Part shown: positions 35,979 through 39,352 of the stretch, in pieces
Layout: every line of letters starts with the position of its first letter
Position numbering within the stretch: position 1 is the first letter of the stretch
DNA from: Acidimicrobiaceae bacterium
GTDB lineage: Bacteria > Actinomycetota > Acidimicrobiia > Acidimicrobiales > RAAP-2
NCBI GenBank assembly: GCA_003133125.1
Contig: PKZO01000065.1
Span: 24,286 to 70,100, forward strand
DNA: 45,815 nucleotides
Direction of reading: 5' to 3'
Notes under the pieces: generated by a model
The model's database searches: none
The model's input: the letters and a program-made list of their open reading frames with translations, nothing else
Told to the model about the DNA's origin: nothing
Position numbers and translations under genes: made by a program

Positions 35979-36076
35979 GTCCGGGACGTAGGTCTCACTT
36001 CGGCTCCGGGACCTCTGTCGCACTACCCGGCCCGGCTCCGAGACCTGTGTCACAGTGGCTCCGGGACCTATGTCAC
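35979..36076. repeat. four degenerate copies of GGCTCCGGGACCTATGTCAC
   Basis: Copies at about 35979 (GTCCGGGACGTAGGTCTCAC), 36002 (GGCTCCGGGACCTCTGTCGCAC), 36034 (GGCTCCGAGACCTGTGTCAC), 36057 (GGCTCCGGGACCTATGTCAC). Confidence 0.85.
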
Positions 36077-36085
36077 GTTCGCGAA

Positions 36086-36544
36086 TTAATGCAGTGATTC
36101 TTCGGTGCGTTCTTTGATCTCAGTGAGAGCGATCAGACCATTGCGAAAACCGAGTAGTTCCTCGGGGGTCAACATGTGCGAGAGTTCGTGATTAACGCAG
36201 GCGATCGCATCACCTACCGCGCGAGCGGCGCGGAGCCCCTTGTCGGTGTTCTGCAGAGCGATGGCGTCGTCCGCGTACGGACCCACCGCGGCCTCGACGA
36301 AATGTCCTTCGAGCAACGCACCTAGGAGTTTCTCTGATTGCGCGTCCGAGAGGTTCATCTCACGCAGTAACTGCTCCGTGTTGGCGCCATTGGCGAGTCC
36401 ACCGACTAGGTAGGGACCGTTCTTGGGCAGGTCGCTCAGCCCTTCGGCGCTCAGTCGAATTCGAATCGCCAGCGAGTAGGTGCCTCGAGCCTGACGCAGC
36501 AACACCGGGACCGGTACTTCGTCGATGGAATTGCTCTGGTTCAC
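36086..36544 (-). CDS. MarR-like winged-helix regulator (tentative)
   Basis: 152 aa; helical, GANTEQLLREMNLSDAQSEKLLGALLEGHFVE and TPEELLGFRNGLIALTEI. Confidence 0.45.
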   Translation of the reverse strand: MNQSNSIDEVPVPVLLRQARGTYSLAIRIRLSAEGLSDLPKNGPYLVGGLANGANTEQLLREMNLSDAQSEKLLGALLEGHFVEAAVGPYADDAIALQNTDKGLRAARAVGDAIACVNHELSHMLTPEELLGFRNGLIALTEIKERTEESLH

Positions 36545-36565
36545 TGCCCTAAAGGTAGCGGACGC

Positions 36566-37522
36566 TCAACTGGAACCGCCAGAATCTCGATAGTGCTCGC
36601 GCCAGATCAGTCGATAGATCCGCAACTTGCGCGGAATCGACCGTAGACCAGGGATCACCGGTACGAGCAGCAGCAGGACCGAGAGCACCATCATCACCGC
36701 CCAGACCAGGGCGTCGCCGTTGCCACTCTGGTTGAACGGCGGGATCTGGTACCAGAAGGTGTAGAGCCACAGCCATGCCTGACCGGGGTAGTTGCCGGTC
36801 TCGTTCATCATGCCCCACTGGTCACCACCGAGGTGTTGTTCGGTGGCGAGGTTGCCGAGGTACTGGCTGTCCGCGAGGAAGAGCAGGGGCTTGGTGTAGT
36901 CAGTCGTGTAGAAGCCGTTGTCGTTCAGCAGGTCCTGATCGAGCGCGCCCGAGCGCGCCATGGTCGTCAGGTCGTTGATCATCACCGGCACCGGACCGGC
37001 GTTGGTGGTGTTCACCACCACCTGGCCCTTGACGAACTTCATGTCCGCCGAGGCCTTCGCGTAGGCGTTGAGCCAACCCGTTTGGGTGCTTGACGAGGCC
37101 GAGGAGTACTGCTTGAGGTCCGCGTCCAACGTCGGCTCGTTCGGCAGCGCCTTTAGGGGCTCGATGACGAAGTTCTGAGCGGAGTTGATGGGAATGCGAA
37201 CGCCGACCCATTTTGCCAGCTGCAATGGACCGATCTGCTGGCTGGCACCATTGTGGTTATAGGGGGCACCGTAGGAAGCGGATATCGACGTGCCGTTCAG
37301 TTCGCTGAGTGCGGTCGTGGCGAAGTCGATGGGATCCGCGTTCGACCAGGACTTGATGGTGATGGCCGCTTCGTCGGGTGAGCCGAAAACAACCGCGAAG
37401 ATCAAGGTGAGTAGCGCGATCACCAAAAGGGCGATGGTGCCCTCCTTGATGATGTCGTAGGGCGTGTGCCCGCCCTTCCACTCGGGGGCGTCGACGTCGG
37501 GTCGGAAGGCCTTCTTCGTCAT
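36566..37522 (-). CDS. membrane protein with large extracytoplasmic domain, putative cytochrome b C-terminal-like partner
   Basis: 318 aa; N-terminal TM, about 200 aa extracytoplasmic domain, C-terminal TM; contains no Cys residue; ATGA overlap with cytochrome b gene. Confidence 0.65.
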   Translation of the reverse strand: MTKKAFRPDVDAPEWKGGHTPYDIIKEGTIALLVIALLTLIFAVVFGSPDEAAITIKSWSNADPIDFATTALSELNGTSISASYGAPYNHNGASQQIGPLQLAKWVGVRIPINSAQNFVIEPLKALPNEPTLDADLKQYSSASSSTQTGWLNAYAKASADMKFVKGQVVVNTTNAGPVPVMINDLTTMARSGALDQDLLNDNGFYTTDYTKPLLFLADSQYLGNLATEQHLGGDQWGMMNETGNYPGQAWLWLYTFWYQIPPFNQSGNGDALVWAVMMVLSVLLLLVPVIPGLRSIPRKLRIYRLIWREHYRDSGGSS

Positions 37523-38166
37523 TCGCCGACCGCGACCTTCTGCGCCGCTGGCTTCACGTCGTCCTCAAAGGGAGGCACCACGCCCTTGATGCGCACGAGA
37601 ATCACGTGTAGTGCAGTCAGCACCACCGCCGCGATCGGTAACAGGACGATGTGCCACATCAGCATCTGTCCCAGGTTCAAGACGTTGAAGTAGGCGCCGG
37701 CGCCCGTCGCGTTGATACCGTCCTTGGCCTGGGTCGTGATCCACTGCGAGTCGAAGTTGCTCTGACTGGCGTAGCCCGTGAAGGCCGTGGCGATGGAGGC
37801 GAGAAAGGTCACCACGCCGGTCATCCAGGTGAGCGTGCGCCCGCCGCGCCAGGCGGCCATGGCGAACTTGCCCCAGAGGTGGATGACCATGGTGAAGAAG
37901 AAGATCTCCACGCTCCAGAGGTGCAGTGAGTTGACGAAGTGACCGTACTGTGAACCGTGCCACCACTGCGGCCCGCGCAGCGCGAGGACGCAGCCCGTGA
38001 AGATCACTACCCCGAGCGAGGCCAGGGTCGCCACGCCAAAGACGTAGATCCACGAGGCGACGTAGGACGGCTGGGTGTCGGGAAGGACCTTTTCCGGAGG
38101 GAGTTTGCCCTCGACCCTACGACGTAGTCGGGTCGTCCATTGACGGTCGATCTCTGCGTTGCTCAT
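37519..38166 (-). CDS. cytochrome b N-terminal-like (b6-type) diheme membrane protein
   Basis: 215 aa; His pairs SLHLWSVEIFFFTMVIHLWGKF and MLMWHIVLLPIAAVVLTALHVILVRIKG, GGRTLTWMTGVV, GYASQSNFDSQWITTQ. Confidence 0.85.
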   Translation of the reverse strand: MSNAEIDRQWTTRLRRRVEGKLPPEKVLPDTQPSYVASWIYVFGVATLASLGVVIFTGCVLALRGPQWWHGSQYGHFVNSLHLWSVEIFFFTMVIHLWGKFAMAAWRGGRTLTWMTGVVTFLASIATAFTGYASQSNFDSQWITTQAKDGINATGAGAYFNVLNLGQMLMWHIVLLPIAAVVLTALHVILVRIKGVVPPFEDDVKPAAQKVAVGE

Positions 38167-38345
38167 TGGTTCTCCTTACGACGACGCCGGCCCGGGAAGG
38201 GTAAGAGGAGAGCCGCGACGAACGTGACGATCATCAAGATGATGACGGTCAGGTTGGCGACGCTTATGTAGAACCAGTGCCAGTGGATGTAATGCCCCAA
38301 AGTGTTCAATGGGAAAATCGCTGCAAAAGACAAAATGGTTGCCAT
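38163..38345 (-). CDS. small single/two-TM membrane protein in the cytochrome b operon
   Basis: 60 aa; MATILSFAAIFPLNTLGHYIHWHWFYISVANLTVIILMIVTFVAALLLPFPGRRRRKENQ; 4-bp overlap with cytochrome b gene. Confidence 0.7.
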   Translation of the reverse strand: MATILSFAAIFPLNTLGHYIHWHWFYISVANLTVIILMIVTFVAALLLPFPGRRRRKENQ

Positions 38346-38386: not shown

Positions 38387-39352
38387 TCAGGACGCGACTA
38401 AGGACTTTCGGCCCGGATTTGCCGAGCGGGATTTCTTCTCCGTACCTGGTTCTCGATCGTGGGCGCTTTGACGCAGAGTGAACTGGGTCATGCCAATGGA
38501 GAGCGACACCGCTCCGGCGACGTGTAGTTCAACGAGCACCACCGGTACGTGTGTGAGGTACTGGGTGACACCAATGGCCGCCTGAACAAGAGCAATCACT
38601 ACCAGACGTCGTACGCCGAGCTGGAGGGGTTTGGGTGCACCCGTCTGCCAGATCGCGAGCAACAAGCCCACCACGAGACCAATGAAGAGCAGGGCCGCGG
38701 CCGAGTGCACCCACGCGGCTGAGGAGAAGGCGAAGGGAAGACGTTTGGCGTGAACTTGACCTTGTGACGAGCCCGCGTGCGGTCCCGAGCCAGTGGTCAT
38801 GGTGCCGGTGACGAGCAGAATCACGAAGGGTATCCACAACGCTCGCGCGACGGCGCGAAAGTGCGGGTCGCGCACGTCACTGCGCGCGCCGGGTCCGTAG
38901 ATGTATTTCGAGTGGTGGTAGAGCACGGCCGCGATTACGACCATCGTCAGCGAGAGCAGCATGTGCAGTGAGACGAGCCAGGGGTTGAGCTTGCTGTAGA
39001 CAACCAATCCTCCGAGCACCGCGTCGGCGATGACGCCAAGGACAAGTGAACCCGAGAGCACCAGGAGGTCGCGACGACGGCGCTCGCGCAGCCACGCGGC
39101 GATCAAGGTCACACCCGTGAGAACAACCAAGGTCACGGTGACCATGCGGTTCGCGTACTCAATGAAGGGATGGATGCTCAACGAGCCCGTGATTCGTCCG
39201 TGAAAACACGTGGGCCAGTCCGGGCAACCCAGGCCCGAACCCGTGAGTCGCACGGCGGCCCCCGAGAGCACGATCAGGATCATCGACAAGAAGGTGGCAA
39301 AGGCGAACCAACGAAAGACCGGTGCTGACAGCGTGCGGGGTGTAGGTGCCAC
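38387..39352 (-). CDS. ctaA: heme A synthase
   Basis: 321 aa; GAAVRLTGSGLGCPDWPTCFHGRI, EYANRMVT, HAKRLPF. Confidence 0.93.
   Translation of the reverse strand: MAPTPRTLSAPVFRWFAFATFLSMILIVLSGAAVRLTGSGLGCPDWPTCFHGRITGSLSIHPFIEYANRMVTVTLVVLTGVTLIAAWLRERRRRDLLVLSGSLVLGVIADAVLGGLVVYSKLNPWLVSLHMLLSLTMVVIAAVLYHHSKYIYGPGARSDVRDPHFRAVARALWIPFVILLVTGTMTTGSGPHAGSSQGQVHAKRLPFAFSSAAWVHSAAALLFIGLVVGLLLAIWQTGAPKPLQLGVRRLVVIALVQAAIGVTQYLTHVPVVLVELHVAGAVSLSIGMTQFTLRQSAHDREPGTEKKSRSANPGRKSLVAS

Follow-up and report, generated by a model that had tools for sequence, protein, structure and literature searches.

The minus strand of the window (the whole stretch of DNA analysed, 45,815 nucleotides) carries a conserved three-gene module, p60-cytb-p318, whose products we interpret, from their sequences and with somewhat better than even confidence, as a Rieske-free, non-bifurcating, menaquinone-linked transmembrane heme-b carrier of three subunits, in which the link to quinone is predicted. 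The module is apparently undescribed in the literature that we searched, which yielded nothing on point about a comparable cytochrome b lacking a Rieske partner or about cytochrome b of the Acidimicrobiia.

In the direction of transcription, the module consists of p60 (38163..38345; delimited by the ORF list, a family alignment, and transmembrane [TM] prediction), which encodes a 60-aa single-TM subunit; cytb (37519..38166), which encodes a cytochrome b6-like diheme subunit of 215 aa; and p318 (36566..37522), which encodes a 318-aa protein that we propose to be a remodelled subunit IV. A fourth minus-strand gene, of 152 aa, follows at 36086..36544. The genes of the module overlap by exactly 4 bp, at positions 38163-38166 (p60/cytb) and 37519-37522 (cytb/p318). 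A scan of GTDB genomes identified 210 loci that encode a cytb relative, and the best 80 were fetched; nearly all of these 80 are labelled as Acidimicrobiaceae, Acidimicrobiales, or actinobacterial MAGs, with a minority of a few Acidobacteria and one Dormibacterota. Within these best 80 of 210 loci, the p60/cytb overlap is kept in 74 of 78 cases and the cytb/p318 overlap in 72 of 81. This bears out a preliminary description of the locus, made from its sequence, in which four minus-strand ORFs had been reported with the first three joined by 4-bp overlaps, an arrangement that recurs in about 90% of related loci. The same description had read all four genes as one operon, which we rule out: p60, cytb, and p318 form the conserved unit, and among the fetched loci only the two nearest (L003 and L004) have homologues of the 152-aa gene, so that it is a local neighbour outside the module. 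Its product had no match in Pfam, NCBIfam, or PHROGs, looks cytoplasmic and HTH/MarR-like by eye, and is possibly a recent local gene or regulator. Scanning the operon for promoters and terminators returned no sites. Between the 152-aa gene and a tRNA-Ala gene, positions 35980-36079 hold three to four copies of a degenerate direct repeat resembling GACAyAGGTCyCGGAGCC with a spacing of 23-32 (3 matches versus 0.14 expected).

The assignment of cytb to the cytochrome b superfamily is supported by matches above the Pfam cut-offs to the N-domain models Cytochrom_B_N_2 (43.3 bits, cut-off 27) and Cytochrome_B (33.1 bits, cut-off 27.2) (PF13631/PF00033) and by a phmmer match to cytochrome b6 in the PDB (1q90_B, E 1.7e-8). 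The protein has the four-helix cytochrome b N-domain with two His pairs, whose members are the predicted ligands of heme bL (His82, codon 37921..37923, and His172, codon 37651..37653) and of heme bH (His96, codon 37879..37881, and His187, codon 37606..37608; all on the minus strand). Their spacings, 14 for His82/96 and 15 for His172/187, are of the b6 type. None of the four varies among 81 homologues or among 20 diverse members, some of them only about 30% identical, and this confirms the two His pairs at b-heme spacing that had been noticed in the 215-aa protein. No cysteine for a covalent b6f-type heme c_n is conserved in cytb, and 34 of the 81 homologues have no cysteine at all. Compared with 25 canonical sequences, two arginines are replaced in the 20 module proteins, at position 79 by Asn (18/20) or Lys (2/20) and at position 167 by Gln (18/20) or Val (2/20); presumably, these are the residues that lie beside heme bL in solved complexes. 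Canonical LPW is replaced by SQ, and Gln141 and Asp149 are constant in all 20 module proteins and specific to them. The Qo-proximal part of cytb is highly conserved within the module. In a phylogenetic tree, the module proteins form one clade (support 100/99) apart from the QcrB and b6-type proteins of the class, the exact attachment of this clade being unsure because the branches are long.

Strong evidence that the three proteins make one complex comes from gene fusions found in other families of the order and in other Acidimicrobiia. Specifically, cytb is fused to p318 at three loci (L091, L096, and L128), p60 to cytb at three others (L102, L125, and L127), and all three are joined into a single chain of 611-638 aa at a further five (L092, L098, L100, L101, and L126). 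Since the products are fused in several combinations, we infer that they belong to one physical complex, and since only p60, cytb, and p318 are joined in this way, the 152-aa gene would lie outside it. At all eight loci where p60 is fused to cytb it occupies the N-terminal position, and its topology is likely N-out/C-in. One of the fused relatives (L091) comes from a single-contig genome that we take to be Acidimicrobium ferrooxidans, whose menaquinone in strain ICP is MK-9(H8) (PMC3035218).

According to a review, a Rieske protein, a c-type cytochrome, and a cytochrome b are always present in cytochrome bc complexes (PMC9162462). Within 5 kb of cytb in the best 80 of the 210 loci, genes for the first two were not found; CxxCH or Rieske motifs occur there only in the redoxin or in frames that are apparently antisense or spurious. 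The genome under study encodes a complete ctaE-qcrC-qcrA-qcrB cluster on another contig, with a diheme QcrC and a Rieske-type QcrA, and also carries COX1 and CydA. Because this canonical cluster is present in the same genome, the module represents an additional complex, and a replacement of complex III can be ruled out. A canonical cytochrome b/Rieske system was likewise present in every module-bearing genome tested, as was an actinobacterial-type QcrB in every such genome tested within the order; CydA was found in 7 of 8 module carriers, in a sample made up of carriers only. The absence of a visible Rieske or c-type partner, put forward in the preliminary description, therefore holds across the 80 loci, and the canonical qcrABC genes that it had proposed to look for are present elsewhere in the genome. 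Nor did any of the findings turn up that it had named as speaking against its view: homologues lack Rieske or cytochrome c flanks, no match links p318 to a characterised subunit, and the heme-ligating histidines are kept. Of its suggestion of a divergent quinone-linked membrane redox complex, the part that stands is a divergent heme-b complex with no Rieske or c-type gene at the locus.

We then focused on p318, the least familiar of the three proteins. Hydropathy places TM segments at aa 28-46 and 272-290, as had been supposed of this two-TM protein with a large extracytoplasmic domain, and the positive-inside rule puts both ends inside. The protein contains no cysteine, an earlier observation that extends to 75 of 77 full-length homologues, and an excess of third-codon-position changes indicates purifying selection. 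Searches of Pfam (38 members queried), NCBIfam, and PHROGs assigned it to no family, and comparison with the PDB by phmmer and hmmsearch gave negative or chance matches, so that we reject a reading as a known subunit. In the fusions, p318 is placed directly after helix D of cytochrome b. With its insert removed, p318 aligned by hhalign to a cytochrome b C-terminal domain profile built from 29 class members with a score of 31 (E 4e-4). Among the controls, none of 60 column shuffles scored above 19.8 and the reversed profile gave 19.2; CtaA and CtaB, aligned to p318, stayed at about 15-16. The corresponding score of p60 was 27, which shows that part of the signal reflects TM composition. Nearly all of the profile signal comes from the helix-E segment, and the half containing helix F scores nothing alone. 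The relaxed alignment path pairs FGSPD with FnAPL in helix E, NETGnYPGQaWLW with NPxxTPnPxKAPWYF in the Qo loop, and VPfIPGLR with LPyIDR in helix F.

On this basis, the proposed helix E corresponds to aa 28-46 (37385..37441; the best segment against cytochrome b helix E, E 8.8e-5) and the proposed helix F to aa 272-290 (36653..36709), which is followed by positive charge in the form of a conserved basic motif, IPGLRSIPR..YR.IWR. Between the two TM segments lies a cysteine-free extracytoplasmic domain, an insert in the ef loop (aa 50-245, 36788..37375), and after it the sequence PGQAWLW (aa 246-252, 36767..36787; these four features are likewise on the minus strand), which the hhalign path puts where canonical proteins have the PEWY/PDWY/APWY Qo motif; under this subunit IV assignment, p318 has no helix G. 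An AlphaFold2 model of p318 alone, from a narrow alignment, reached a pLDDT of 58 and gave only chance Foldseek matches in the PDB. A model of the fused protein, likewise mediocre overall, reached 69, with a helical insert domain in which most blocks have a pLDDT of 91-98, and its best PDB matches by Foldseek are all cytochrome b of bc1, bcc, or b6f complexes (E 2e-4, probability 1.0; alignments of 220-520 columns with low TM-scores of about 0.2). Taken together, profile, topology, and position make it likely, with moderate support that would be weak if the hhalign link were taken alone, that p318 descends from subunit IV, the C-terminal half of cytochrome b, and has been remodelled. The position of the insert suggests that a domain of about 190 residues occupies the PEWY/Qo loop, the docking place expected for the Rieske head.

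If p318 is indeed a remodelled C-terminal half, the membrane core of the complex is still recognisably bc/b6f-like and probably works like one half of such a complex. Like cytochrome b6 and subunit IV of b6f, and like the split Rieske complexes of other Acidimicrobiia, the module has a split cytochrome b with His spacings of 14/15 and a proposed separate C-half, and the N-half of b6f is caught by the same Pfam models as cytb. However, compared with b6f-type and other split complexes, the module adds the insert of about 190 aa and drops helix G. The Qo motif follows the pattern P[EDPA]WY, is PEWY in mitochondria, and varies at its second residue in relation to potentials and the type of quinone (PMC9162462), whereas p318 has PGQxW at the corresponding place. 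Because the operon contains neither a Rieske gene, which is encoded elsewhere with QcrB, nor a c-type cytochrome gene, and because it lacks a motif of this pattern, we would not classify the module as a bc/b6f complex. Split b6/subunit-IV-type complexes with APWY instead of PEWY occur in many other Acidimicrobiia (L107, L108, and L110, among others), and one of them (L108) combines Rieske, diheme c-type, and ferredoxin-like genes with the split b6/subunit IV in a single operon; the module differs from these Rieske complexes in its PGQ-W and from L108 in having neither a Rieske nor a c-type gene. Module carriers in the order mostly have a fused QcrB and not the split APWY type. The QcrB encoded in the same genome (bcc type; G000:C41) shares with cytb the cytochrome b superfamily and two hemes but has a PDWY motif and lies beside Rieske and diheme cytochrome c genes, and cytb scores only 20.2 bits against the NCBIfam QcrB model (cut-off 500). 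The best NCBIfam match of cytb is ExtP (NF040969; 46 bits, below the cut-off of 290), the b-type cytochrome of a Geobacter selenite/tellurite operon, which, like the module protein, is a cytochrome b N-domain that stands alone and is not part of a classical bc operon.

In the arrangement that we favour, a b6-like four-helix bundle with two b hemes would span the membrane, p318 would be a cut-down subunit IV contributing helices E and F, and p60 would add an extra helix. The cofactor-free extracytoplasmic domain would replace the loop that carries PEWY and receives the Rieske protein, and probably caps the outer heme-bL/quinol pocket. Since there would be no one-electron high-potential acceptor at the outer site, classical Q-cycle bifurcation would be impossible; electrons would instead cross the membrane via bL and bH, in a presumed flow that links the menaquinone pool with either a partner on the outer side or a second quinone site, and the complex would form a side branch, electrogenic or regulatory, beside the normal bcc-aa3 chain of the genome. 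It is tempting to go further and to predict, more tentatively and against our own balance of expectation, a new Rieske-independent quinone enzyme working in parallel to complex III, in which a domain that has grown within the Qo loop would stand permanently in place of the mobile Rieske head and which would be electrogenic and either non-bifurcating or differently bifurcating. If true, the b core would be detachable from bifurcation, and the module would offer a natural system for testing what a Qo site requires. Such tests are feasible because the module is found in the cultured A. ferrooxidans, which has a closed genome.

The gene neighbourhood bears on another reading, which we consider unlikely, namely that the module serves the terminal oxidase or the bcc-aa3 supercomplex as a factor for assembly, heme delivery, or sensing, with its b hemes as cargo or sensor. 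Upstream of p60, across a gap of 41 bp, lies a gene of the heme A synthase family on the same strand (ctaA, 38387..39352; Pfam COX15-CtaA), and in most close relatives the module adjoins ctaA/ctaB and a ResA-like redoxin. A single type of cofactor would also suit such a factor, as would dispensability, which follows from the absence of the module from 4 of 19 searched genomes of its own family that keep QcrB. However, ctaA precedes p60 in most of the best 80 of 210 loci within the close family only, so that the adjacency to ctaA, ctaB, and the redoxin remarked on earlier is conserved there but not in A. ferrooxidans or other lineages, where the module stands alone in varied gene contexts; the conserved upstream genes thus represent local synteny. 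Moreover, COX1 was not matched in four genomes that carry divergent copies (G062, G038, G383, and G377), so the function of the module is not tied to the COX1 oxidase, and an obligatory link to a heme-copper oxidase can be rejected.

Alternatively, the complex could be a bifurcating quinone enzyme in which a soluble outer-side protein, such as a cupredoxin or thiol redoxin, takes the role of the Rieske protein. The conservation of the Qo-proximal part of cytb would fit this, and the outer-side domain could serve as a docking platform, but we find the idea improbable: no candidate partner is conserved beside the module outside the close family, and the neighbouring redoxin is missing in other contexts. 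Comparison of gene neighbourhoods revealed no evident conserved downstream gene, the clustering of ORFs being confounded by antisense frames. Similarly improbable is a conventional bc-type quinol oxidase in which cytb would be an alternative cytochrome b using the Rieske and c-type subunits (QcrCA) encoded elsewhere, for although a canonical system accompanies the module in every genome tested, the heme-bL region and Qo loop are rebuilt with a large domain in the ef loop, the Rieske gene forms a set with that of QcrB from which the module is absent, and the tree shows a single deep separate clade and not a recent copy of QcrB.

The Rieske-free carrier that we prefer to these alternatives is patchily distributed. 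p318 was found in 32 of 296 genomes of the class and in 10 of 347 genomes of a phylum sample, 3 of the 10 lying outside the class; in the classes of two of these outside carriers, it is present in 1 of 36 and 1 of 40 genomes. This pattern suggests gain by transfer or frequent loss. Two copies per genome were seen on contigs of one MAG (L053 and L074) and in two further genomes (G267:C17 and C8; G383:C8 and C16). Universal-stress, GAF-LuxR, PNPOx, and ferritin genes occur close to divergent copies, as does a directly adjoining P-type cation ATPase gene, neighbours that provide a weak lead toward a low-oxygen or redox-stress role. In one of these genomes (G383; L123:1551-4952), the module copy directly abuts the ATPase gene, which is apparently frameshifted (split ORFs). 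In another (G377; L121), genes of the Usp, GAF-LuxR, PNPOx-like, and GNAT types lie in the vicinity of the divergent copy and cytochrome bd is encoded about 12 kb away, surroundings that resemble dormancy/hypoxia gene sets.
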